64,000 nt of DNA from Verrucomicrobiales bacterium. Lineage in GTDB: Bacteria > Verrucomicrobiota > Verrucomicrobiia > Verrucomicrobiales > DEV007. The notes below the pieces were generated by a model. The model was not told where the DNA came from. It ran no database searches and saw only the letters and a list, made by a program, of their open reading frames with translations. The translations under genes and the position numbers were made by a program. Shown here one piece after another: positions 20,540-35,281 of the stretch. Each line of letters begins with the position of its first letter. Positions within the stretch are counted from its first letter, which is position 1. Location: contig JARGPH010000001.1 of the NCBI GenBank assembly GCA_029213065.1, forward strand, positions 124,001 through 188,000, read 5' to 3'.

Positions 20540-21511
20540 ATGAGCAGCCGCACCAAACCAAATCTTCTCTCCCGTTACGGAGAATGGCTGGGGCTTTTTG
20601 CGGTCCTCATCGGCCTCGTCACTGTCTTCAGTCTCTTCAGTGATCGCTTTCTTTCGGCAGCTACTTTCAATCAGATCGCGAATCAGGTTCCGGCACTGGC
20701 GGTGATTGCGGTCGGGATGACCTTTGTCATCATCACTGCGGGAATCGATCTTTCCGTAGGTTCTGTGCTCGCCTTTGCCGGATCAATGTTAGGCCTCGCG
20801 ATGGTTGACTGGTCCTGGCCTCTCCTCGCTGCATTGCCCCTCGCCATTTTGGCCGGAGCACTCTGCGGGTGGGCGAACGGTTGGGTCTCGGTCAGGTTTG
20901 CGGTCCCGAGTTTCATTGTCACGCTGGGTATGATGCAAATCGCCCGCGGCCTCGCCTACCTCGGAACCGATTCCCAAACCAAGTATATCGGCGCCCCCGT
21001 CGAATGGCTCGGCGCTCCCATTTCCGGGCTCGGAATCTCATGGGCTTTCCTCTTCGCCGTCGTTGTCGTCATCGTCGGGCAACTCGTCCTCCGCCGAACC
21101 GTCTTCGGTCGCTACGTTATGGTGATCGGAGCCAACGAAGAGGCCGCGACCTATTCCGGTGTCAATGTCAGGCCAATCAAAATCGCCGTTTTTGCCATTG
21201 CCGGTGCTCTCGCCGGACTCGGGGCCGCCTTTGACAGTTCGAAACTTGCCGCAGTCGATCCCAACGCAGGCACCGGGCTGGAACTCTCAGCGATCGCTGC
21301 CGTCGTCATTGGAGGAACCAGCCTCATGGGAGGTCGGGGTTCGGTCGTGGGGAGTTTCATTGGTGTTCTCATCATCGCCACCCTCAGCGCCGGTCTCGCC
21401 CAGCTCGGAGCAACGGAACCTGTCAAATTTCTCATTACCGGAATCGTCATTGTCGCTGCGGTTATCATCGACGCGTGGCGGGCGGGAAAATCGAAAAAAT
21501 TTACTCCATGA
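20540..21511 (+). CDS. Sugar ABC transporter permease (RbsC type)
   Basis: This 323-residue polytopic inner-membrane protein has the BPD_transp_2 pattern of ribose-type permeases: VIAVGMTFVIITAGIDLSVG near the first third, a FIVTLGMMQIARGLAY segment, and the cytoplasmic coupling block GANEEAATYSGVNV. It follows the binding protein by 23 bases, and its stop overlaps the next start (ATGA). No ATPase (RbsA-like) gene is next to it, although these importers need one; it may use one encoded elsewhere. Confidence 0.93.
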   Translation: MSSRTKPNLLSRYGEWLGLFAVLIGLVTVFSLFSDRFLSAATFNQIANQVPALAVIAVGMTFVIITAGIDLSVGSVLAFAGSMLGLAMVDWSWPLLAALPLAILAGALCGWANGWVSVRFAVPSFIVTLGMMQIARGLAYLGTDSQTKYIGAPVEWLGAPISGLGISWAFLFAVVVVIVGQLVLRRTVFGRYVMVIGANEEAATYSGVNVRPIKIAVFAIAGALAGLGAAFDSSKLAAVDPNAGTGLELSAIAAVVIGGTSLMGGRGSVVGSFIGVLIIATLSAGLAQLGATEPVKFLITGIVIVAAVIIDAWRAGKSKKFTP

Positions 21512-22530
21512 AATACTACCTGATCCTCACTTCCATACTCTTCAGCTTCGGACTTGCCGGGGCGGAACCGGTTCGCATGATTTTCGATACCGACATGGGC
21601 AACGACATCGACGATGCCATGGCCCTCGCGATCATTCATCAGCTCGTGGAACGCGGAAACGTTGACCTCCTTTGTGTCACCTCGACAAAAGATCATCCGA
21701 AATCGGCCTCCTACATCGACGCCGTCAATACCTACTACGGTCACCCCGATATTCCTGTCGGAGCGGTGCGCAACGGAGCGACACCTGAAGAAGGTAGATT
21801 CAACGGAGTCGCTGATCGCACGGACGAGGATGGAAAACCACTCTACCCTCACGATCTTAAATCGGGGGTCGACGCACCGGAAGCCGTCTCTTTGATGCGC
21901 AAAACGCTGGCCTCGCAACCCGACGGTTCCGTCATGCTCGTTCAAGTGGGCTTCTTCACGAACTGCGCGCGCCTCCTCGAATCCAAGCCGGATGAGCATT
22001 CCGACCTCGACGGCAAAGCGCTGATTAAGAAAAAGGTGAAAGAATTTGTGATCATGGCGGGAGCGTTCCAGACGATTCGCTACAACTCGATTCACATCGA
22101 GTATAACGTGCTCAAAGACATTCCCGCCGCTCAGAAGGTCGCGGAAGAATGGCCCACGCCGGTGATTTGGAGCGGTTTCGAAATCGGAATCAACAGCGTC
22201 TACCCATGGAAGAGCATCATGGAGGATTACAATTACAACGCACAACACCTCATCAAAGAGAGCTATCTCGCCTACGTGCCGGAAAAACCGCACGACCGCC
22301 CCACCTGGGATCTGAGCTGCGTGCTTTACTCTGCCTTTCCCGATCGCGGCTACTTCGATCTCTCCCCGGTCGGAAACGTAACCGTCGATGATAAAGGAAT
22401 CACCACCTTCACCACTAAAGGTAAGAACGAAGGCAAAAATGATCGCTACCTCCTCATGAACGATATCCAGGCGGCACGGATTGTTGAAGCCTACACCCAC
22501 CTCTGCTCCCAGCCACCGACGGCCAAATGA
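21508..22530 (+). CDS. Exported nucleoside hydrolase-family protein, first of a pair
   Basis: The start at 21508 is chosen because it overlaps the permease stop as ATGA and opens a signal peptide (MKYYLILTSILFSFGLAGA); an earlier in-frame ATG inside the permease is not needed. The 340-residue protein has the calcium-binding motif of inosine-uridine nucleoside N-ribohydrolases, FDTDMGNDIDDAMA (D27, D29, D33, D35, D36), plus VIMAGAF in the middle. Export is unusual for purine/pyrimidine salvage enzymes and fits hydrolysis of extracellular nucleosides or other N-glycosides in the periplasm. Confidence 0.9.
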   Translation: MKYYLILTSILFSFGLAGAEPVRMIFDTDMGNDIDDAMALAIIHQLVERGNVDLLCVTSTKDHPKSASYIDAVNTYYGHPDIPVGAVRNGATPEEGRFNGVADRTDEDGKPLYPHDLKSGVDAPEAVSLMRKTLASQPDGSVMLVQVGFFTNCARLLESKPDEHSDLDGKALIKKKVKEFVIMAGAFQTIRYNSIHIEYNVLKDIPAAQKVAEEWPTPVIWSGFEIGINSVYPWKSIMEDYNYNAQHLIKESYLAYVPEKPHDRPTWDLSCVLYSAFPDRGYFDLSPVGNVTVDDKGITTFTTKGKNEGKNDRYLLMNDIQAARIVEAYTHLCSQPPTAK

Positions 22531-23504
22531 AGTTTTTCGCCAGGCTCCTCGCAGCAATCACTCTCCTCTCTTCGGCTGGTTTTGCAGCCGAACCGGTAAA
22601 ACTGATTTTCGATACAGACATGGCGAACGACTGCGATGACGCAGGCGCTCTTGCCGTTCTCAATGCCCTCGCCGACAAAGGTGAAGTAGAGATTCTCGCA
22701 ATCACGACGAACCGCAACTGCCCCGGCAATGCCTCAGGCGCTGCCGCCGATGCGATCAACACCTGGTACGGCCGGCCCGACATTCCAATCGGATCTGACA
22801 AGGACGCCGCAAAGGTCAGCTGGAAAGCGCCCAGCAGTTTCACGCCGACGCTTCACAAGGACTTCCCGAACGATTCACCGACTGACGATCAACTCCCCGA
22901 CGCACTCGACGTTTATCGCGAGGCCCTCCGTTCCCAACCTGACAAAAGCGTCGTCATCTGCAGCGTCGGAGCGCTCAGTAATCTCGAAGACCTCTGGCGT
23001 GCCGAGCCCGGTCTCGTAAAAGCGAAGGTCAAAGAACTCTTCATCATGGGCGGAGGTTTTCCCCGCACCATGAAGGGCGAAACCAATATCAAACTCGATC
23101 CCGCAGCAGCCGTCACAATCACCAACGAATGGCCCACTCCGATCGTCTGGCAGGGATTCGAAGTCGGTGCCGCGATGAGCAATGGGGCAGAGCTTCAGTC
23201 CTCACCTGAGGCGAATCCCGTTCGCCGCGCTTACGAACTGCGCCCCTTTCACGAACATCAGGCGATCACATTCGGGAAACCCAATCATGATCTCGCCACC
23301 GTTCTCCTCGCCGTTCGCGGTGTCGAGGATGAATACTGGACCGTTGGGAAACCTGGGCGCGTCGTCGTCGATTCTGATGGGAACACCCGCTGGGAAACGG
23401 ACTACCCGAAAAAACACCGCTACGTCAAAATAAAAGGCCACGTAAACAAATTGGAGAAAATCCTCGGCGATCTCCTCATCGCCCCGCCTCAATCAGCCCA
23501 ATGA
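22527..23504 (+). CDS. Exported nucleoside hydrolase-family protein, second of a pair
   Basis: This 325-residue protein overlaps its predecessor by ATGA and has its own signal peptide (MKFFARLLAAITLLSSAGFA). The calcium-site motif is FDTDMANDCDDAGA (D29, D31, D35, D37, D38), with a cysteine in place of the usual hydrophobic residue, and the family VICSVGALSNL and FIMGGGFPR blocks follow. It is clearly a paralogue of the upstream gene but quite divergent, so the two may have different substrates or work in sequence. Confidence 0.9.
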   Translation: MKFFARLLAAITLLSSAGFAAEPVKLIFDTDMANDCDDAGALAVLNALADKGEVEILAITTNRNCPGNASGAAADAINTWYGRPDIPIGSDKDAAKVSWKAPSSFTPTLHKDFPNDSPTDDQLPDALDVYREALRSQPDKSVVICSVGALSNLEDLWRAEPGLVKAKVKELFIMGGGFPRTMKGETNIKLDPAAAVTITNEWPTPIVWQGFEVGAAMSNGAELQSSPEANPVRRAYELRPFHEHQAITFGKPNHDLATVLLAVRGVEDEYWTVGKPGRVVVDSDGNTRWETDYPKKHRYVKIKGHVNKLEKILGDLLIAPPQSAQ

Positions 23505-25324
23505 ACATTCGCACTGTTTTATCTCTCGCAGCCCTTGCCGGCTTTCATCTCTTCGCGACCGCAGCTGAGAATCCCAATGTCATTATCGTGATGACAGATG
23601 ATCAGGGATACCCGGAACTTTCCGCCCACGGAAATCCCATTCTCGAAACGCCTCACATGGATACACTTCATGCCGGCAGTGTTCGACTCACTGATTTTCA
23701 TGTCGCTCCGATGTGCACGCCGACGCGGGGACAATTGCTCACCGGAATCGATGCCGCGAAAAACGGGGCGATCAATGTCAGCGCCGGTCGCACCCTCCTC
23801 CGCCCCGAGCTCCCCACCATCGCCGACCTCTACAAAGAAGCCGGTTACCGCACCGGCCTCTTCGGAAAATGGCACCTCGGAGACAACTACCCCTTCCGCC
23901 CTGCCGACAGAGGCTTTGAAGAGACCCTCTGGTTCCCGTCATCACACATCAACTCCGTACCCGATGTCTGGAACAACGACTACTTTGACGACAGCTACAC
24001 TCGCAACGGAACCCTGACAGAATACAAGGGCTACTGCACCGACGTCTTTTTCGATGAGGCGATCTCATGGATGAAAGAGAGAAAGGAAGCGAAGGAACCG
24101 TTTCTCACCTACCTGCCTACCAATGCGCCGCACTCCCCCTACTGGGTGCCTAAGGAATATTTCGAAGCGATGGAGAAGAAGGTCGCTGCGGCGGAAGCGG
24201 CGAGAGTGATCAAAGGCCGCCCCCCTCAGAAGCGAAGCGACCTCATCAAATACCTCGCGATGATCAAAAACATCGATGATAACATCGGGAGACTGGATCA
24301 GTTCCTCAAAGACTCCGGTCTATTCGAGAACACCATCCTCGTCTTCCTCACCGACAATGGCAGCACTCTAGCAGAAACCTATTATCCTGCAGGAATGCGG
24401 GGCAGAAAAACCCAACTGTGGGAAGGCGGCCATCGCGTCCCCTGTTTCATCCGCTGGCCTGAAGGTGAGCTGAAACACGGAACCGATCTCGATGGACTCA
24501 CCGAAGTTCAGGATCTTCTCCCCACCCTTCTGGAACTTTCCGGAATTGAGACCGAAACGAATTTCGATGGCATCGACCTGGCTCCCTCCCTGCGCGGGGA
24601 GACTCCCGTTGACCCTGACCGTACCCTCATCATCAACTACAGCCGGATGCCTTTTGGCTACGAGTATCCGGCACCGGACTCCCCCTCCATCATGCGGCGC
24701 GAGATGGCCGGCGTCCTCTGGAAACGCTGGAGACTTCTCGAAGACAAAGAACTATACAACCTCGAAACTGATCCCCTTCAGCAAAAGAATGTTATCAACG
24801 CTCATGCTCTGGTTGCCGCCAAAATGCGCAAGTCCCTCGATCAGTGGTGGGATGAAGTCGGTGAAGAAGCGAACGAACCCCAGCGGGTCATCATCGGTCA
24901 CGACGCGGAGAATCCCACTTTACTCACCGCCTGTGAATGGCTCGATGTTTTCGTTGATCAGCAAAGTCAGATCCGCAGAGCAACCTTGAAAAACAGCTAT
25001 TGGGAACTCGATGTCGCGGAAGCAGGTGAATACGAATTTGAACTGCGCCGCTGGCCGCGGGACTCGGGGCTGGGCCTTCGCGACGGAGCGGAAGCCACTG
25101 AAGTCACCGACGGCCAACTCGAGAAAGGGGCGGCACTGGACATTGCCAAGGTGCGCATGAAAATCGGGCAGTTTCAAGCAAGGCGCCCTGTCCCGCCGGA
25201 AGCCGACCACATCACCTTCACAGGAAAACTGAATCCCGGTCCAAAACGACTCTATACCTGGTTCCTCGATTCGAATAACGAGGCGATCGTCGGAGCCTAC
25301 TACGTTTACATCAAAAGGAAGTGA
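23501..25324 (+). CDS. Secreted arylsulfatase with C-terminal beta domain
   Basis: This 607-residue protein begins with a signal peptide (to about residue 22) and the metal-binding IVMTDDQGYPEL block. The active-site motif is C72-TPTRGQLLTG, the canonical CxPxR. FGKWHLGDNYPF and FLTDNGS complete the site. After the sulfatase core (about 1-450) a C-terminal region of about 150 residues (SYWELDVAEAGEYEFELRRWP) matches the same region in the sulfatase at 47102-48901, so this is a shared accessory domain. It is the last gene of the operon and overlaps the nucleosidase stop (ATGA). Confidence 0.94.
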   Translation: MNIRTVLSLAALAGFHLFATAAENPNVIIVMTDDQGYPELSAHGNPILETPHMDTLHAGSVRLTDFHVAPMCTPTRGQLLTGIDAAKNGAINVSAGRTLLRPELPTIADLYKEAGYRTGLFGKWHLGDNYPFRPADRGFEETLWFPSSHINSVPDVWNNDYFDDSYTRNGTLTEYKGYCTDVFFDEAISWMKERKEAKEPFLTYLPTNAPHSPYWVPKEYFEAMEKKVAAAEAARVIKGRPPQKRSDLIKYLAMIKNIDDNIGRLDQFLKDSGLFENTILVFLTDNGSTLAETYYPAGMRGRKTQLWEGGHRVPCFIRWPEGELKHGTDLDGLTEVQDLLPTLLELSGIETETNFDGIDLAPSLRGETPVDPDRTLIINYSRMPFGYEYPAPDSPSIMRREMAGVLWKRWRLLEDKELYNLETDPLQQKNVINAHALVAAKMRKSLDQWWDEVGEEANEPQRVIIGHDAENPTLLTACEWLDVFVDQQSQIRRATLKNSYWELDVAEAGEYEFELRRWPRDSGLGLRDGAEATEVTDGQLEKGAALDIAKVRMKIGQFQARRPVPPEADHITFTGKLNPGPKRLYTWFLDSNNEAIVGAYYVYIKRK

Positions 25325-25369
25325 GGCGCTCGCATCCGGTTTTTTCCTGCACTCGTAACCCTTTGCGTT

Positions 25370-25714
25370 ATGAGTGCAGAAGAACAACAAGAGGAACTCC
25401 AAAGTAAAGCGGCCGCCCTGCGGGCACGGGTCAACCAACTCCGCTCGACGGTGGAGGAACTCAATACCGCAGCAAAGCTCGATATGATCGGCAAGGTCGA
25501 GCAAATTGAAACGATGGTCTCCGCCCTTCAAAGAGATGCCGGGGAGCTCAGTTCCAACACGGGAGCTGACAGAAAGACGGTTAAGGAACTCTGTGCGGTA
25601 ACCGACTCGAAGCTCACCTCCCTTGAACACGAGATCGAGGCACTTGCCCTCGGCAATCCAACAACGGTCTCCGCTGCTGTCGATGCCATCGTAAATATCG
25701 GTAGCAAAGAGTGA
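25370..25714 (+). CDS. Small coiled-coil protein of unknown function
   Basis: This 114-residue cytosolic protein is almost wholly helical with heptad-like spacing (ELQSKAAALRARVNQLRSTV, then IGKVEQIETMVSALQRDAG) and no signal or membrane segment. I do not recognise it. It starts 45 bases after the sulfatase stop and is followed by a good intrinsic terminator, so it may be read through from the operon or have its own promoter. It is not close enough to the GAF gene to be placed in that operon. Confidence 0.65.
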   Translation: MSAEEQQEELQSKAAALRARVNQLRSTVEELNTAAKLDMIGKVEQIETMVSALQRDAGELSSNTGADRKTVKELCAVTDSKLTSLEHEIEALALGNPTTVSAAVDAIVNIGSKE

Positions 25715-25747
25715 TCTCGAAGCAGGGAGAAACCATTTCCTCTACTC

Positions 25748-25783
25748 AAAAAGCCGGTTCGTTTTCGACGATCCGGTTTTTTT
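25748..25783 (+). terminator. Intrinsic terminator after the coiled-coil gene
   Basis: AAAAAGCCGG and CCGGTTTTTT form a ten-pair stem with one G-T pair, with a 15-base loop that includes a TCG-TTTT-CGA mini-stem. The run of T residues follows directly. It separates the coiled-coil gene from the GAF-subtilase operon. Confidence 0.8.
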
Positions 25784-25831
25784 ATGTAAATCTATTGTTT
25801 TGTTGAATCGTTTTGCCGATAAAACGTCTAT

Positions 25832-26440
25832 TTGCTAGACTCACGTCCCTACAAACCGCTGTTTGCTGTGATTACCACCGACTTAGAACTTTCAGAATTT
25901 GCCCCCATGATCGAGCGAAGGCTCGCGCAGGCAGCAGGATCGGTTACTCCCGATGAATTCAAAACGCTCCTCGGCGATCCGGGACGCGCCATGCTGCGCG
26001 CCACGATGGAGAGTGTCGGCGGCGATTCCACCTCGATATGGCTCGCTGATATAGCGGAAGACAATTTGATCGTGACGCATTCATCACCTGAAGAGTCGTT
26101 TATCGGGTGGAAGCAACCGGTTACCGAAGGCCTCATCAGCCTCGTCTTCGCTTCCGAGCAATCGCTCTGCGAGAACAAAGTCTATCAAAACGCTAATCAT
26201 TCGAAGCGGGTCGACGACGCGATGGATCAGGTCACCTGCGCGCTGATTGCGACGCCCTTCTATTTCGGTGGAGCACTTCAGGGCGTTGTCAGCTGTGTCC
26301 AACTCAAGGACGGTCTCGCCGCCGAGGATCCCTCCGGATTTTCCGCGCGTCACCTCGCCCGGATTCGCAGACTCTCCACTGTCCTTGAACGTCTTGTAAA
26401 CTACCGGCTTTTAACCACTCTGATCGGGCTTGAATTATGA
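25832..26440 (+). CDS. GAF-domain protein
   Basis: The frame has no early ATG: it opens with TTG at 25832, with GTG at 25868 and ATG at 25907 as alternatives, and none has a clear ribosome site, so the start is uncertain. The protein (up to 202 residues) has one GAF domain (about residues 45-185), with SIWLADIAEDNLIVTHSSP, GLISLVFASEQSL and VTCALIATPFYFGGALQGVV. GAF domains bind small ligands or sense redox state. There is no output domain, so it may regulate its neighbour. Its stop overlaps the subtilase start as ATGA. Confidence 0.75.
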   Translation: MLDSRPYKPLFAVITTDLELSEFAPMIERRLAQAAGSVTPDEFKTLLGDPGRAMLRATMESVGGDSTSIWLADIAEDNLIVTHSSPEESFIGWKQPVTEGLISLVFASEQSLCENKVYQNANHSKRVDDAMDQVTCALIATPFYFGGALQGVVSCVQLKDGLAAEDPSGFSARHLARIRRLSTVLERLVNYRLLTTLIGLEL

Positions 26441-27237
26441 GCGACCTCAGTGAATCGGTCATCGATTGGCCCAATCTGCGGCAGACCCGCGAAGCCCTCC
26501 AGGTGGGCGATGGTTCGGGGGTGCGCATCGCTGTCATCGATTCAGGTATCGAGGCCGATCACCCGCGACTGTCCTCGATGAACCTCGTCGAGTCGATCTC
26601 ATTTGCTGAGGACGCCGGTCGCATCGTCATCGACGAGAAAGACCTGACGGATTCCTACGGTCACGGAACCGCGGTCGCGAGTATCATTCATGCAGTCGCT
26701 CCGCAAGCCGAAATCGGAAGCTTCCGGGTTATCGACGGCCGCAGCGTTTCCCGGACTCATTTGATCTGCGCGGGGGTAAACGAAGCAATCAATCGCGGAT
26801 ATCACATTCTCAACTGCAGCTTCGGTTGCAGAGGGCTTGCCAAATTTATTCTTCCCCACAAAGAATGGGCCGACCTGGCATGGCTCTCGGGAGTGCACGT
26901 CGTGGCCGCCTGCAGCAATGTCGACTCCAATGAAGCGGAGTGGCCGTCCCATTTCAGTTCTGTCATTGGCGTCGATCTTGCGGACACCAGTGACGACTCT
27001 ATTTACCACCGCAAAAACCACATGGCCAGCTTCTCAGCACGCGGCGAAAATATCGAAGTGGCCTGGACCGGAGGCGGCGTCCAGACACAGACCGGAACCA
27101 GTTTCGCCGCTCCCCGGGTCACGGGAATGATGGCGCGTATCCTTTCGCGATTTCCTGACACGTCCCCCGCTCTGATGCTTCATCTTCTCGCCGAAGTATC
27201 CGAACCATGGCGCTCCGAACTCGACGCCGACTGGTAA
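26437..27237 (+). CDS. Cytosolic S8 family (subtilisin-like) serine protease
   Basis: This 266-residue protease has no signal peptide or prodomain, so it should act in the cytosol. The catalytic triad is intact: D35 in VRIAVIDSGIEADHP, H76 in DSYGHGTAVAS and S222 in TGTSFAAPRVTG, and the oxyanion-hole Asn is N161 in VAACSN. The length is close to a bare catalytic domain. It is translationally coupled to the GAF gene (ATGA overlap) and followed 71 bases later by the L,D-transpeptidase gene. Intracellular subtilases are usually processing proteases; its substrate could be the N-terminal part of the downstream protein. Confidence 0.92.
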   Translation: MSDLSESVIDWPNLRQTREALQVGDGSGVRIAVIDSGIEADHPRLSSMNLVESISFAEDAGRIVIDEKDLTDSYGHGTAVASIIHAVAPQAEIGSFRVIDGRSVSRTHLICAGVNEAINRGYHILNCSFGCRGLAKFILPHKEWADLAWLSGVHVVAACSNVDSNEAEWPSHFSSVIGVDLADTSDDSIYHRKNHMASFSARGENIEVAWTGGGVQTQTGTSFAAPRVTGMMARILSRFPDTSPALMLHLLAEVSEPWRSELDADW

Positions 27238-27308
27238 ACCGATTCCCCTCCCGAAAACAACAAACGAAAACAACAACCGGAACCGACAAACAAAACCACA
27301 TCTGAACT

Positions 27309-28544
27309 ATGACTACGACCGCTACATTTCTAGGACCTGTAAATGAACTGCCACCCGAGGGCTCTGATTTTGAGATGAATCAGAAATCGCCCATGGACTG
27401 CTGCGCGGCACTGTTCTCAAATTCAGGCATCGCGTTTGATGTGTCACGGGACGGGGTCCTCGTTCAGTCCAATCCGCAGGAGGCTGAGCTGTTTCAACGG
27501 TTCAACATCGAAATGAACGAGGCGAACGAGCCGGAACTGGATTGGAGCGACTCTGCCATTGAGATCCAACTCCAGGGTCTCTTCCCGGACGCTTCAGCGT
27601 TCAAGACACTTTCGGACGCCTCGGAGCCGGAAGATTACGTGAGACGTTTTCTCGAGGTGTTAGGATCTTCTCTCGACGATCCGGCAATGAAGCACGAAGG
27701 GGCAACTGTTCCACTGATTCGCTGGCAGGCAGGTGAAGATCAGGAGTCAGCGCAAATTCAACTCCTCGGTCTCCTTCTCGCCGACGAATCTCAGTTTGAG
27801 TCGTTTTGTCAGGCAAACAAGGATCAGGTCGGCCTGATTTTTGAAGATGCCGAAATCCAGGCACACGGGCTTCGCGAAACCGTCACAGTATTGGCACTCC
27901 TCGCGGTCACCCTCGGCTCCACCACCAGCGCCGAGGCAGGACTCTTCAAAAAGCTGAAAGCGAAAAAGCAGGCTGCGAAGATGCAGCAGATCGCCTATCA
28001 GAACTACATTCAACAGGCCCAGGCTCCGGTGCAGCAAACTCAGCAAACCGGCTGGAAGGACGTTCACAACGACGCCTACTTCAATCACGCTCTCCTCGAA
28101 GCCGGTAAAGACGGCGAGAAAAAAGTCATCGTTGATATCGGCCGCCAGCGTGCCGTTCTTCTGATCGACAATCAGATCGCGATCGACACCGCCGTCTCCA
28201 CCGCCCGGTCAGGAAAAGAGACGCCGCGCGGCACCTTTAAGATCACTCAGCGCGTCGAGTCCGGAAAAACCTCGACGATCTACGGTTGCTCACTCCCGTA
28301 CTGGCAGCGCCTTGACCAATCAGCTATCGGCCTCCACGTGGGAGACCTTCCGGGTTACGCTGCATCGGCCGGTTGTATCCGTTTACCTCACAGCGTTGCT
28401 CCAATCCTCTTTGCCAATACCGCCAGCGGTATCGAGGTGGAAGTGGTCGATCACTGGGACCAGCAGGAACTTCAGCAGGGATTTCAATCTCAGGATGTGC
28501 TCGTCGCTCAAGTCGATTCGACAAGCAGTCAGCAGGCGAACTGA
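27309..28544 (+). CDS. L,D-transpeptidase (YkuD) with a long N-terminal region before its membrane segment
   Basis: The C-terminal domain (about residues 270-397) is a YkuD L,D-transpeptidase with H343 and the nucleophile C356 in ASAGCIRLP; such enzymes cross-link peptidoglycan or attach proteins to it. The first 190 residues have no signal and match nothing I know; they are acidic, with two cysteines at 31-32 and LLGLLLADESQFESF near 152-165. A hydrophobic segment with a signal-like end (VTVLALLAVTLGSTTSAEA, 192-210) follows, so the protein is either a type II membrane protein with a cytosolic domain or is cut there. A Lys/Gln-rich linker connects it to YkuD. Confidence 0.85.
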   Translation: MTTTATFLGPVNELPPEGSDFEMNQKSPMDCCAALFSNSGIAFDVSRDGVLVQSNPQEAELFQRFNIEMNEANEPELDWSDSAIEIQLQGLFPDASAFKTLSDASEPEDYVRRFLEVLGSSLDDPAMKHEGATVPLIRWQAGEDQESAQIQLLGLLLADESQFESFCQANKDQVGLIFEDAEIQAHGLRETVTVLALLAVTLGSTTSAEAGLFKKLKAKKQAAKMQQIAYQNYIQQAQAPVQQTQQTGWKDVHNDAYFNHALLEAGKDGEKKVIVDIGRQRAVLLIDNQIAIDTAVSTARSGKETPRGTFKITQRVESGKTSTIYGCSLPYWQRLDQSAIGLHVGDLPGYAASAGCIRLPHSVAPILFANTASGIEVEVVDHWDQQELQQGFQSQDVLVAQVDSTSSQQAN

Positions 28545-28567
28545 TCGCCTCACATCTTCTGAAACTC

Positions 28568-28598
28568 AACCCTGTCGGGTCACTGACCTGACAGGGTT
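28568..28598. terminator. Bidirectional hairpin between convergent genes
   Basis: AACCCTGTCGGGTCA and TGACCTGACAGGGTT form a stem of 14 pairs with one G-T pair around a three-base loop. It lies between the L,D-transpeptidase gene (plus) and a sulfatase gene (minus). No T-run follows on either side, so it is not a standard intrinsic terminator. Its arms share the AACCCTGTYRGGTC word with the hairpin at 51298-51342. Confidence 0.6.
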
Positions 28599-28628
28599 GG
28601 ATCGATGAAAAAAGCCGGCTCCCTCCCG

Positions 28629-30164
28629 CTACGGCCGCGTGCGACCTGCCTTGATGATCTCAGCGAGCCGGGCTTTCATCTTCCCGGCGACTTCGAGGTT
28701 GGACTCAAGCACATCAGTCTCCTCCCCGGGATCTAACTTGAGATCAAAAAGCTGAAACTGAGGCACCGCAACGTTATCCAGCTTTTGCTCCACAACGGTA
28801 TTACGGGCCTTTTTCTTATCGTGCCTGACGAGCTTCCAATCACCTGAGCGGAAACCGAAATTTCCTTTACCACCGTTGTCCTGCTGAACAAATTCACTGC
28901 GTCCTTTCGCTCCGGCTTTGCCGAACATTGCACCGGAGACATCGAAGGTATCGAGCGCAGCGTCTTTTGGAATTTCCGCTTCGGTGAGAGCGGCGAGGCT
29001 CCCGTAAATATCGATTGTCGAAACAACCTCGTCGGAGACACCGGGTTTGATCGTCCCTTTCCATCGAGTGATAAAAGGTGTCCTCGTGCCCCCCTCGTAA
29101 ACGCTGTATTTACCTCCGGTAAATGGACCTGCCGCACGGTGGTCCTTCAATTTTTCCAACGCTTCATCGGCATAGCCGTCATCCATAACAGGGCCATTGT
29201 CGGAGCAGAAAATGACGAGGGTGTCATCAGCGATTTCAAGGCGATCCAACGTTTTCATCAATTCACCGACACACCAGTCGAGCTGGACAATCGAGTCAGC
29301 ACGAAATCCGAGTGGCGTCGCTCCCTGAAACCGCTCGTGCGGAATACGGGGAACGTGAAGATCATGTGAGGCGAAGAAAAGGAAGAACGGTTCGTCTTTA
29401 TTTTTCTCGATCCAGGCATTGGACTGCTCGACCCATTTGTCAGCGAGGTCCTCGTCGCGGAAGCGGGCAGCATGACCGCCCGTGTAAAACCCGATCCGGC
29501 TGATGCCATTATGAATTGTGGCATTGTGGCCGTGAGTCCAATCCATCTTCAGCGTGTCGCGGTGGGTGATACCGGTAGGGTGATCGTCGTCTGGCTTTTT
29601 CATCCCCACCCAGAGTGGGTCGGCGGGATCGAGATTGAGAACGCGATGATTCTCAACATAGACCTGGGGAACACGGTCATTGGTCGTCGGCAGAAGAAAG
29701 GAATAGTCGAAGCCGATTTCAAGTGGCCCCGGCTTGAGATCAGCATTCCACTGAGGCCCCTCTTCACCACCCAATCCGAGGTGCCATTTCCCCACCACAG
29801 CGGTTTGGTACCCCACCGACTGAAACATGTCTGCGATCGTATGGGTTTCATGCGGAATGATCAGCGGGCTGCTCGGAGGAGCGATCCCGGTCCCCTTTTC
29901 GCGAAACGCGTAAGTACCCGTGAGAAACGAATAGCGCGTCGGCGTGCAGGTTGAGGCCGAGCAATACCCGTTCGTAAATCGCTGCCCCTCTGCGGCGAGC
30001 TGATCAATATTCGGAGTCTCGAACTGGTTCGCCCCGTAGCAGGAAAGGTCACCGTATCCCATGTCGTCCGCCATGATGACGATGACATTGGGCTTCGTCG
30101 TTTCCGCCTCAGCGTGAACAAAAAACGACAGAACGACAAGGGGGAGGAGGCTTCTCATTTTCAT
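28629..30164 (-). CDS. Secreted arylsulfatase
   Basis: This 511-residue protein has a signal peptide (MKMRSLLPLVVLSFFVHAEA) and a complete sulfatase set: IVIMADDMGYGDLSCYGA for the metal site, C73-TPTRYSFLTG for formylglycine, VGKWHLGLGG and IFCSDNGPVMDDGY. The length matches type I arylsulfatases without accessory domains. It is followed on the minus strand by nothing but the hairpin; its upstream neighbour is the exported protein at 30204-31319, 39 bases away in the same direction. The sulfated substrate is unknown. Confidence 0.94.
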   Translation of the reverse strand: MKMRSLLPLVVLSFFVHAEAETTKPNVIVIMADDMGYGDLSCYGANQFETPNIDQLAAEGQRFTNGYCSASTCTPTRYSFLTGTYAFREKGTGIAPPSSPLIIPHETHTIADMFQSVGYQTAVVGKWHLGLGGEEGPQWNADLKPGPLEIGFDYSFLLPTTNDRVPQVYVENHRVLNLDPADPLWVGMKKPDDDHPTGITHRDTLKMDWTHGHNATIHNGISRIGFYTGGHAARFRDEDLADKWVEQSNAWIEKNKDEPFFLFFASHDLHVPRIPHERFQGATPLGFRADSIVQLDWCVGELMKTLDRLEIADDTLVIFCSDNGPVMDDGYADEALEKLKDHRAAGPFTGGKYSVYEGGTRTPFITRWKGTIKPGVSDEVVSTIDIYGSLAALTEAEIPKDAALDTFDVSGAMFGKAGAKGRSEFVQQDNGGKGNFGFRSGDWKLVRHDKKKARNTVVEQKLDNVAVPQFQLFDLKLDPGEETDVLESNLEVAGKMKARLAEIIKAGRTRP

Positions 30165-30203
30165 AGCGGAAATGAGACTAGGATAAGTAGCCGCTAATTA
30201 CAG

Positions 30204-31319
30204 CTATTTTTTCACCCCGAAAAACTGCACCGCATCCGCGTCCGAGTAACGGTAGCCGGTTCCGAACGGAAGTGGTTTCGCGACACCTGATTGATAGATC
30301 TCGCGCAACCGTGGCTGGTCGTATTCAGAAAACATCTCAATTGGACCGGTGTAGTTGCCGTAGTAGGAAACATTGTAGTAAAGCTCGAGGAAATCGGCAG
30401 GAATGCCGGAAGCATCCTCAAGAATATAATCGAGATCGCCCACGAGAAAGTTCCGGATATTGCTGAAATCCTCGGTATGCATCAGAAACGAAGCCGCCTT
30501 CAAATAGCCGACTCCTCCGGGGCGGGAATCGAGAAAATTCTTGAATGAACTTCCAGGCTTGAAGCCGGCATTCGATAAATCGGTTTTGAAGAAATAGAGA
30601 TTCTGTTCCGGTGCTGCAGCGCCACCGGCAGTCGCCCGCAAGCGGAGCCAGAGGCCCGTGCCATCCGCAGCGGAAGCTTTCACGACCCCGCCGTCCGCCC
30701 CGAGAGTGACATACCCTGCTTCAAGAACATCGTGACCGGTCATCGCCGCGAAATAGAGCAGAATGGGAAAGACCCCGTTGACGCCCTCGCCTTCGAAATC
30801 CGTTCTCATGTCTTTGGTGATGAAGAAGCTGCGCCGGGAGATATCCCGCAGCGTAAAATTGAGATGCTTCAAATACTCCCCGACCTGCGCTTCGTTCATC
30901 GTCGAGAAATCGGGAACCGCTCCCAGCGGCTCCATCCCCACGAGAATATACTCTGGAACCCCCGGAAACATCGTCGCGGCATGGACGAAGTCCGGACCAC
31001 CGAACATATACTTCATCACCGTGGGCCGGCCGATTCTCGGACGAATTTCCGTGCGCGACCATTCGTCGATTTGCTTGAGACGGGAATCCCTCCACGTCTT
31101 GGTGAGAGCTCTCGTTTCAGCGTAATGCTGATTCACTGAAGGCAGCGCCATAAGGCCTTCGAGCGGATTCCCCGGTGATAAAGGAAGTCCTGCAAAAAGC
31201 CGTGCGATATCGTTATAAGAGACCTTTTGCTGCGCCGCCCCCTCTTGCGGGGAAAAAGTCAGAAAAACAGCTAACAACAGAGCAATACGCTTCAATTTCA
31301 AAATCTGATAAATCATCAC
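30204..31319 (-). CDS. Exported protein of unknown function
   Basis: This 371-residue protein has a signal peptide (a basic start, then IALLLAVFLTF, ending near EGAAQQ). I recognise no domain. It contains aromatic- and glycine-rich segments (YMFGGPDFVHAATMFPGVPEYILVG) and KPLPFGTGYRYSDADAVQFFG at the end; it has no cysteine pattern or clear active site. The gene is the upstream partner of an arylsulfatase (39-base gap), which hints at a role in the same periplasmic process. A glycan-binding or unknown hydrolase role is possible but cannot be supported from sequence. Confidence 0.75.
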   Translation of the reverse strand: MMIYQILKLKRIALLLAVFLTFSPQEGAAQQKVSYNDIARLFAGLPLSPGNPLEGLMALPSVNQHYAETRALTKTWRDSRLKQIDEWSRTEIRPRIGRPTVMKYMFGGPDFVHAATMFPGVPEYILVGMEPLGAVPDFSTMNEAQVGEYLKHLNFTLRDISRRSFFITKDMRTDFEGEGVNGVFPILLYFAAMTGHDVLEAGYVTLGADGGVVKASAADGTGLWLRLRATAGGAAAPEQNLYFFKTDLSNAGFKPGSSFKNFLDSRPGGVGYLKAASFLMHTEDFSNIRNFLVGDLDYILEDASGIPADFLELYYNVSYYGNYTGPIEMFSEYDQPRLREIYQSGVAKPLPFGTGYRYSDADAVQFFGVKK

Positions 31320-31447
31320 TAACTAATACGATTCGAAACGAAATTCCTTTCTCCCTTTATTCCAAATTTTTTCGGCATCTCGAAGGTTTTTGCCTCGAAA
31401 AGAAAGTCCACCGTGACAACCACGCTCCAGGCGATTTTCCCCGACTC

Positions 31448-34400
31448 TCAGAAATCCCAAAGGCGCACCGTCTTCGCCTCACCCGGCCTCGTCCACTGAA
31501 TCAGGCGAATCGAGTCGATTCTTACTTCGCCTTCAATCTGAGCGGGATCAATCCGAAGCGAAGTAAGCCGGTCATCTCCGGGATTGAAATCGGCCCGCCA
31601 AACACCGAACGAAACCCGGGGAACCACGAGAAGCCGATCGGGACCGAACCCGGGATGCGCCTTCGTTGCCCAATACAGCGCAACCCCCGAGTCATTCTCC
31701 TGCCGCATTGTGATCTCCACCGACAGCTTTCCCTTTGCGGGTCCAAAATCGGCCGTTTTAATAAAAGGATCTTTGGCAATGGCCTTCACGAGGAGAAAGT
31801 CGTCAACTTCTTCCAAGGTGGCATTTTTGTTCACTTCCCACCCATCAGCGGACGGTCGGTATCGAGGATTCGGAACGGGAACGAGCGACGCGGTCTCCTC
31901 GAGATGACGCGAAATCCCTTCGTTCAGTTCCGCCACCAGCTCAGGCTTCTCTTCAGAGAGATCCGTCATCTCGCCTGGATCGTCATTCAAATTGACCAAT
32001 CTCAAACGGTCAGCCTGATTATACCCATCGGCATAAAAGCGGGTCAGCTTCCACGGTCCGCGCCGAACCGAAGTTCCGCCCTCCGTTCCTGTAGCGGGGG
32101 GACTGTGGGGAAAGTGAAAGTACAGTTCGCGATCCGAAGCAATATCCTCCCTGCCAAGAAACGCCGGCAGCAGATTCGTTCCATCCACGACCTGCCCGGG
32201 AGCGCTTGGTGCGGCAGCAGCGGCGAGCGCTGTGGGAAACAGATCGATCGAACTAACCAGTCCGGGATTCACCGCCCCCGCCTGAATCCTCTTCGGCCAG
32301 GCCGCGATGAAAGGAACCCGCTGACCGCCTTCGTTGATATTCCCTTTCCCGTTTCGTAAGGGATGATTGTTAGTCGCGATTTCGTTGGCCGCGTAGTTGT
32401 ATTCGTTGCCCCCGTTATCCGAGGTAAAGACCACGAGCGTGTTTTCGCTGAGGCCGAGCCTGTCGAGCGTTTCCATGACCCGCCCGACATTATCATCGAG
32501 CGTCTCGATCATCGCCGCCATGACCGGATTTTTCCGCGGCGCATTGAAAGGGAGGCCTTTCGCTTTCTCTACAATTTTCACCATCCAGTTTGGCTGTCAT
32601 TCATTTGGTCAACGAACCGGGTCACACCAGATTTTCCATAAACACGGCCCCCCCCTTTTTGCTTTCTCTTCCAGCCATTTGATCGACTCCGTCGTGATGA
32701 CATCGTCGATATGCGAGCCTTCGGGCGATTTCGGAATCGTCTCAATCGGCCATGGCGCAAAGAATCCGCCGGGAGGGCCGGGGTGCTCGCGTCCACCGAT
32801 GACGAGGTCGAATCCCTGCTGATCGGGAAAATAGGGAGCACGACCGAGATGCCACTTCCCGACAAAGGCGGACTGATAACCGACTTTCTTGAGGCGCTCA
32901 GGAATCGTTTCGTAGAAATTGGGAAAGCGGGTTCGCGTTCCCGGCTCGACCGCCACCTGAGTCGGCTTGGCAGTGGCAGCTACCGTTGGATCGAGGACCA
33001 CTGCGGGAACATGGCACGCCGGCGTGGTGAGACGAATCCGCCCCGGATATTGTCCTGTCAGGATACTGGCCCGCGTTGGTGAGCACAGGGGGCTCGCAGC
33101 GTAGGCATTGGTGAATTTCATTCCCCGCTTCGCGAGAGCCGCGATATTCGGGGTCTCGTAAAAATCCTCATTGGGATCCAGATACGGCGTCGTGTCCGAC
33201 CAACCAAGGTCATCCGCGACGAGGTAGACGATGTTTGGCTTTGCGGGAGGTCTTACCTCTCTAACCTCAGTAGCCTCTTTCGAATAGTAGGCGGATGCGA
33301 TCTCGTCATACTCAGATTCGCGATCGGTTCCGATCGCCTTGTAAACATCCCATCCGAGTTTGTGGTTCCCGTGCTCATCAATGATCCCGACGCGAAGCCC
33401 ACCTTCCTGATCGGGCATGTCCTGATACCGGTGAAGGTGATAAGCTTCCACGGTCTTCAAATGCGGGAGCTTCCGGAAGGCGTATAAAAGTCCAGCCGCC
33501 TGGCGTTTCTGATCCTCCTCGCTGAGAGTCGGAGAGTTGAATCCCTGCTCGGAAAAGAGAATCGCTCTCTCCTCTTCACCTCTGAACCGGAAGCGCTCCT
33601 GTGCGAGGAAAGCTGGAAGCACCTCCATATTTTTAGGTGTAATGTAGGGAGTTTCAAAATCCAGCGTAACCTCCTCATCATCCCACGTATCGGGGTCGCG
33701 CAAATTCCTCGGGTAAGGGTGATAAGCGATGCCCCACTCGAAATCCCCTTCCGCTTTTGTGATTTCAGAAAACAGCTCCACCATTTCCCGAACCGTGTAA
33801 GCGCCCTTGCCGAGACTCGGCTTCGTCCAGTGGTGAGTCAGGGAGATGAACGTTCGTGCATGAGGATCAAAGAGCCGCGTCGTCGTGAAAACGGTGCGCA
33901 TCGACCGGACGTAGGTTTCGAGGTAACGCGCGAGCGGCTGGTCGCCCATATTCGTCCAGGTGCCCGCCTGATCGATTTCATTATGGACCACCCAGTTACT
34001 CACTCGCGCCTCCGGTTTCGAAAAAGTCCCGGCGAGGTAGTAGATTCCCGCACGGTAAAGCTGAGCCCCGGCCTCTGTCGCGAGGTTGGGCATCGCAAAG
34101 GTGCCGCGGGTCTCCGCTTCAGGATGCGTCATCGTTTGCCCCTTCTGATTTCCCACCAGAAGTATACAGGTGACGATGACATTCTTTTCACAGAGATTTT
34201 TGATCGTCGCGATTTTCCCCGCCATGAACTGCGGATTGATGAAATAGATTTTCCCTTCAAACGGAAACGGCGTAAAGCCGGGGCGCTTCGTTTCTGAAAT
34301 CATCGCATTGAGAACCACATTCATCGTCGCGTGAGAAATCCCCAGATCGAAAATCTCGTGGTTGGGCCCGCCAATATGCGGAACCCCGCCGAGTCCCTTT

Positions 34401-35281
34401 TGATGAGTCGCTTTCAATTCAGGCAAGTCGCGGGCAATCCCCTCTGCGACCGTATCAGCCCACCGGGAGAGTGAGGCAGGTTTTCCATTCGGCTTGTCCA
34501 GTCGCCAACGCGAGAGGGCACGATCCACTTTTCCGTCAGGGGAAAATCGCTTCACGATTGTTTTGAACTCACCCTTCACTCCCGTGGAAAGCGGTGCCTC
34601 TGAAGCCGCCAGATGCGAAGCCTCGTTTACCCGAAGCTCAACCAGCGAAGCGCCGTCACCGGCGTTTCCGGAAATACGAATTCGCTCCTTCTCAATCACC
34701 ACCGAGGTGATCTCGTTCGGATACCAGTCGCGGAGATACTGCAAATAGGCCTCCGCATCGTCCGCTTTGGCTTGTTCCCGCTCCACTTTCGTCGCTTTCA
34801 AGGTCTTCTCCTCTTCGGTCGGTTGGCGCACCTTCACATTCCTGATCTGAAACGAATCACCAACCTTACCGCTCAACGAAAAATGAAAGCGCATCTTCGG
34901 ATCCCCTTGCGGCGGGGCCGGATTCCCCTCGGAGATATCAAGCGCGAACGGCTGCCACGTCTCCGCGAGAGGAAGCTCTTTTACATCCGACTGCGTCATG
35001 CCGCCATCCGTCTGCCGGTATTTCAGCGAAAGATTCTTCATCCCCGAAGGAGAGAAATACTCGAACGCTAAAACAGTGTGCTTGTTAGGATCAAAGTCAG
35101 TTCGCACCGGCCCGGTCCAGAAATGAGGACCGGGACCATTGATCGTCAGCTCCCGAACACCTTCGGAAACGGGTTTCACCTCAACGCCGCGAAACGGGCC
35201 AAGCACAAGCGGAACCTCGGCATGGGTGATGCAGGAGAAGCAGAACAAAAAGAGGAAAAGGAAGAGTAGTTTTCGCATCAT
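31448..35281 (-). pseudogene. Glycosidase-like (DUF5722-type)-sulfatase fusion, interrupted by two in-frame TGA codons
   Basis: One frame on the minus strand runs from the ATG at 35281 to 31448, broken only by TGA at 32609-32611 and TGA at 32597-32599, with P-N-E between them. The first part (890 residues) has a signal peptide, a jelly-roll-like region, and a TIM-barrel glycosidase-like region with NWVVHNEID and ILFSEQGFNSPT as candidate acid and nucleophile sites, then a sulfatase start at about 681 with C733-SPTRASILTG. The second part (378 residues from 32584) continues the sulfatase with ETLDDNVGRV and VFTSDNGGNEY. The break lies just after the motif GGP-CLWKIWC, beside a run of eight G. 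A conserved His expected near the break reads as Arg. It may be a decaying gene, a sequencing error or a readthrough; it starts 1 base after the esterase gene's stop. Confidence 0.8.

Follow-up and report, generated by a model that had tools for sequence, protein, structure and literature searches.

Within the 64,000-nt window, the whole stretch of Verrucomicrobiales DNA analysed here, three genes follow one another closely on the forward strand, on which all features described below lie. They code for a GAF-domain protein of 190 aa (25868..26440), a cytosolic S8 subtilase of 266 aa (26437..27237), and an L,D-transpeptidase pro-protein of 411 aa (27309..28544). The stop codon of the GAF gene and the start codon of the subtilase gene overlap as ATGA at 26437-26440, and the 71-base gap that had been reported between the subtilase and transpeptidase genes was correct on recheck. 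A scan of the window for promoters and terminators gave no more than shuffled sequences did. Upstream of the operon lies a gene for a 114-aa coiled-coil-like protein (25370-25714), and a shorter open reading frame whose end resembles that of this gene occupies the same relative place at another locus (L059, 5297-5536). The operon is flanked by two nucleoside-hydrolase-like and several sulfatase-like genes (21475-35281), and elsewhere in the genus it has similar neighbours.

The first gene had been described as coding for a GAF-only protein starting at TTG 25832; the GAF fold held up, and the start had to be moved. Translation very probably begins at GTG 25868, because the orthologues inspected within the genus have 190 aa and a GTG start, and the TTG start would add 12 unconserved residues. 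The Pfam GAF_2 profile gave 21.6 bits, below its curated cut-off of 28.6. The AlphaFold2 model (pLDDT 94) matched solved GAF domains in a Foldseek search (E about 1e-9), and mostly GAF-domain structures were found among the best 50 Foldseek rows, which supports the fold. No NKFDE-type motif was seen by eye in the protein. In one module elsewhere, a gene for a nucleotide-cyclase catalytic domain overlaps the GAF gene (L056, 5542-6710), a hint that the ligand could be a cyclic nucleotide.

The second gene product belongs to the peptidase S8 family by its match to Pfam PF00082 (100.7 bits against a cut-off of 21.8; E 1.2e-28). Residues D35, H76, N161, and S222 are conserved in the alignment, which bears out the original prediction of a signal-less S8 protease with D35, H76, and S222 intact and adds N161 to the set. 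The enzyme has neither a signal nor a propeptide, the catalytic domain beginning at its very start. Exactly three S8 proteases are encoded in the genome, and each is GAF-coupled. An anti-phage role was considered and rejected, as PADLOC matched the protease to no more than generic subtilase and IetS profiles and gave no match for the GAF and transpeptidase proteins.

The third protein carries a YkuD catalytic domain at about residues 263-385 (28095..28463; Pfam match 271-378, 48.2 bits against a cut-off of 23.4, E 2.2e-12). Residues H343 and C356 are invariant in all 25 sequences aligned, C356 standing in SAGCIRLP; in the family of the window transpeptidase this box is SAGC, in others the usual SHGC. 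Comparison of the domain with solved L,D-transpeptidases yielded a VIA-align Z of about 16. By its domain and its conserved His and Cys, the protein is a YkuD L,D-transpeptidase, with the corresponding activity predicted. Its start at ATG 27309 is backed by orthologues sharing M-x3-ATFLGPV..LPAEG. An alternative start just before residue 192 was rejected, the sole candidate (TTG195) sitting inside the hydrophobic core; with no usable in-frame start there, the start far upstream of residue 192 stands as first proposed.

What precedes the catalytic domain is unusual in its order of parts. Residues 1-172 (27309..27824) form an acidic, mixed alpha/beta region of no known family, here called the N-domain. 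The net charge over residues 1-190 is -26. AlphaFold2 predicted a folded block with pLDDT mostly between 76 and 90 up to residue 160, which supplies the fold prediction proposed earlier for the pro-region, and dN/dS values of 0.03-0.18 in four pairs indicated purifying selection. No relatives of the N-domain were found in Pfam or, by sequence, among PDB structures, and a structure search with the full-length transpeptidase was filled by YkuD matches. In the predicted model, the order of strands and helices may recall type III secretion chaperone-like folds. The N-domain is followed by a low-confidence linker containing EDAEIQAHGLRE, then by a hydrophobic stretch, and then by an A-x-A box. The last two make up an apparent internal Sec-type signal peptide (residues 191-210; 27879..27938), with the A-x-A box before G211. 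Both alanines of the box, A208 and A210, are invariant in the 25 aligned transpeptidases, and the stretch aligns, AGLF region included, with the signal peptide at the N-terminus of an unlinked paralogue from this genome. Given the invariant box and this resemblance, the best reading of the hydrophobic stretch is that of a cleavable Sec signal peptide pushed inwards by the N-domain. Thus, the roughly 190 acidic residues noticed at the outset are part of a real protein, but the segment behind them, then taken for a membrane segment, appears to be a signal peptide. A second N-domain transpeptidase copy in genome G472 (contig C12; L258, 5093-6328) keeps EVEGRG and lacks the A-x-A box, and it may therefore stay membrane-anchored.

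The linker sequence EDAEIQAHGLRE (residues 179-190; 27843..27878) is a candidate cleavage or recognition site of the kind that had been proposed for the pro-region. Its consensus is E-[VI]-x-[AG]-[HR]-G-x-[RK]-E, with E182 and G187 invariant in 25/25 sequences. Unlinked homologues of the transpeptidase keep the motif as well, two of them with D at the position of E182. When 13 genomes were searched for the motif together with a following signal, the element was convincing at the transpeptidase gene only. The shorter pattern [ED][VI]x[GA][HR] was present in 30 of 31 transpeptidases, of which a few matches may fall elsewhere in the protein.

The gene order expected in related genomes was found: the trio is shared by different genera and by three families of the Verrucomicrobiales. 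Synteny within the genus says little, because the wider neighbourhood is conserved there too; outside the genus, including two other families, the trio recurs and its flanks differ. The N-domain transpeptidase was detected in 35 of the 289 genomes of the order (34 by an N-domain profile, plus G477 by a full-length profile). All 35 carry the subtilase family, versus 84/289 overall (p 3e-22, kinship ignored). The genes are adjacent in 30 of these genomes, cut by contig ends in two (G018 and G507), and unlinked in three (G422, G472, and G477). In a subtilase tree built without 13 long or distant rows, in which the row of G477 is a fragment, the rows from genomes with the N-domain transpeptidase formed two pure groups with the unlinked subtilases inside them, which argues for a partnership that outlasts the separation of the genes. 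These data provide strong evidence that the trio is coupled as a functional unit.

As a module, the GAF-subtilase pair is reused with other partners, which carry a similar motif. A GAF gene stands beside 72 of the 76 subtilase loci, the spacing lies within -11..+60 bases in 66 of the 71 measurable ones, and no GAF-subtilase fusion protein was present among the loci scanned. An N-domain transpeptidase accompanies 19 of the 76 loci and a protein of about 73 aa accompanies 39, never both at one locus. This small protein (FLxxLGPEVSGH...NExAL) is found beside modules that have no transpeptidase (e.g., L049, L055, L096, L100, L142, and L144); it had no Pfam or NCBIfam match, and an ECF sigma factor gene is located near it in several loci. 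A third group of modules occurs alongside MNIO or radical-SAM enzymes and RiPP-like precursors. One of these is in the window genome itself (G000, contig C52; L051, 5280-8705), where an MNIO-type RiPP-like cluster encodes an MbnB_TglH_ChrH enzyme, a GAF protein, and a subtilase. Its precursor begins with MAILRSSDGKFYEV and has a Cys/His/Trp-rich tail, the junction reading DVEAHG followed by WCW. Related RiPP-like clusters are present in other genomes (L130, L132, L133, and L269-L281), and their precursors have a common leader, MAI[LV]R..DG[KR], and a V-x-[GAP]-H junction; a radical SAM/SPASM protein is encoded in L133, with a similar gene in L132.

The pattern [ED][VI]x[GA][HR] was found in 28 of the 39 small proteins, versus 1.2 expected, and after thinning to 15 representatives it remained in 7, versus 0.5 expected (p 2e-7). 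In the RiPP-like precursors collected, V-x-[GAP]-H-[GND] lies at the leader/core junction in 13/13, of which 8 were fetched after the motif had been noticed; the 13 are homologous and therefore do not count as 13 independent cases. With a matrix derived from the transpeptidases only, the precursor of the same genome ranked first of 805 genes by a narrow lead, and individual precursors had weak position-specific scores relative to shuffles. The active-site box in several of these subtilases, D-V-[YF]-G-H-G-T, itself resembles the junction motif. Taken as a whole, these comparisons are suggestive of a motif common to the transpeptidases, the precursors, and the small proteins.

We rate at somewhat better than even the reading that the operon is a regulated-export cassette, in which the cytosolic subtilase, perhaps gated by the GAF protein, cuts the junction motif and thereby exposes the signal peptide of the transpeptidase. 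The transpeptidase would be made as a cytosolic pro-protein, its folded acidic N-domain lying ahead of an otherwise normal Sec signal. The subtilase would recognise E-[VI]-x-[AG]-[HR]-G and cut at or beside the motif, which would leave a short signal peptide, about LRETVTVLALLAVTLGSTTSAEA, so that the transpeptidase could be exported and signal peptidase I could trim it. The GAF protein, whose synthesis is coupled to that of the protease, would probably regulate the subtilase according to a small-molecule cue. Judged from the sequences, cleavage is plausible, and we infer from them the cut site and the effect on export; control by the GAF protein is possible, to judge from the translational coupling and the near-constant pairing. 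The original prediction held that the subtilase cuts the pro-region and so controls peptidoglycan modification. The coupling (gene order and 35/35 co-occurrence) and the presence of a motif at the needed place speak for it, but the cut would probably control export rather than directly activate an enzyme anchored in the membrane. The uncut pro-protein might still be exported, since signal sequences can function internally. The shortness of the motif and the G472 copy (L258) without the A-x-A box also weigh against the export reading.

Internal hydrophobic segments can also act as signal anchors. The N-domain might accordingly stay in the cytosol as a tether or regulator while signal peptidase I frees the enzyme, with the subtilase merely turning over the remaining N-domain or membrane form. 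The conserved A-x-A box and the predicted fold of the N-domain agree with this arrangement. However, a cut at the A-x-A box loses the tether, so that an N-domain kept before a cleavable signal is hard to explain, and of the few residues invariant in the pro-region, two fall in the short junction motif; we therefore regard such an anchor as unlikely. The operon-linked subtilase with its intact active site could instead degrade the pro-protein or its N-domain under GAF control and so lower the transpeptidase level, turnover being the role of many cytosolic proteases. We think this improbable, since the single-site-like motif beside an intact signal peptide and the likeness to RiPP leader/core junctions fit precise processing better. 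That the genes are merely inherited as neighbours, without mutual action and with an unrelated role for the N-domain, would agree with the wider neighbourhood conserved in the genus but is very improbable, given that the trio recurs elsewhere with different flanks and that a subtilase of the matching type persists in the three genomes where the genes are unlinked.

Processing of the pro-protein ahead of export, as we favour, has relatives among described systems. The best named NCBIfam matches of the window subtilase were QhpE together with mycosin, and its score with the QhpE profile (NF049966) was 95.9 bits, under the cut-off of 165. In the cytosol, QhpE takes the N-terminal leader off a substrate encoded in its own operon, ahead of transfer to the periplasm (PMC7876137). 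Like QhpE, the window enzyme is a signal-less cytosolic S8 protease encoded with its presumed substrate, and the motif and the coupling suggest leader cutting here too. In contrast, the substrate of QhpE is a small subunit that undergoes radical-SAM modification and is exported through an ABC transporter, whereas the candidate target in the window is a Sec-type pro-enzyme, and the window operon has a coupled GAF protein. Nor does the subtilase lie in a qhp operon, its neighbours being the GAF, transpeptidase, and sulfatase- or nucleoside-hydrolase-like genes. The system thus appears QhpE-like in its working, as a cytosolic leader-removing subtilase, yet it is not a QhpE member by score or operon. 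Leader cutting at short recognition motifs is also described for the S8 leader peptidases of RiPPs, PatA/PatG of the cyanobactin pathway among them (PMC10885120). The window subtilase matches PatA/PatG weakly (43 bits against a 421-bit cut-off); its candidate substrate is an enzyme of 411 aa, and a GAF partner is unmentioned in PMC10885120. Ordinary YkuD L,D-transpeptidases, whose signal is N-terminal, share the catalytic domain, but none has an N-domain before the signal. In Providencia, the rhomboid AarA removes an N-terminal extension that blocks the export-related TatA; that protease is intramembrane, the extension is very short, and there is no sensor gene. In the open-access literature, we found no report of the GAF-subtilase pair and no description of a leader-removing subtilase with such a target and sensor partner.

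If the export reading is right, bacteria can hold a wall-modifying enzyme in the cytosol with its export signal masked and release it on cue. This would be a layer of cell-wall control unmentioned in a review of L,D-transpeptidases from December 2025, in whose main text "protease" and "proteoly" are absent (PMC12729407). The candidate cleavage motif would also tie an uncharacterised protease family, present in 84/289 genomes, to three kinds of partner. We offer more tentatively, as a possibility on which we would not rely, that GAF-coupled cytosolic subtilases form a general regulatory module of the Verrucomicrobiales that cuts [ED]-V-x-[GA]-[HR] in unrelated partners. It would unmask the Sec signal of the transpeptidase pro-protein, remove the leaders of RiPP-like precursors, and cut the small protein whose gene lies near that of an ECF sigma factor. 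If true, secretion, peptide maturation, and transcription would all come under post-translational, signal-gated control by one protease family.

Downstream of some modules lies a membrane protein, for which a PqqD-like reading was dropped when the Pfam and NCBIfam searches gave no match. The protein is about 275-287 aa long (L049, 7170-7997; L142, 4190-5053; L144, 4410-5246); it has a membrane segment and an N-terminal part on the cytosolic side, and its C-terminal end (RRDEFYLQN...) is conserved.
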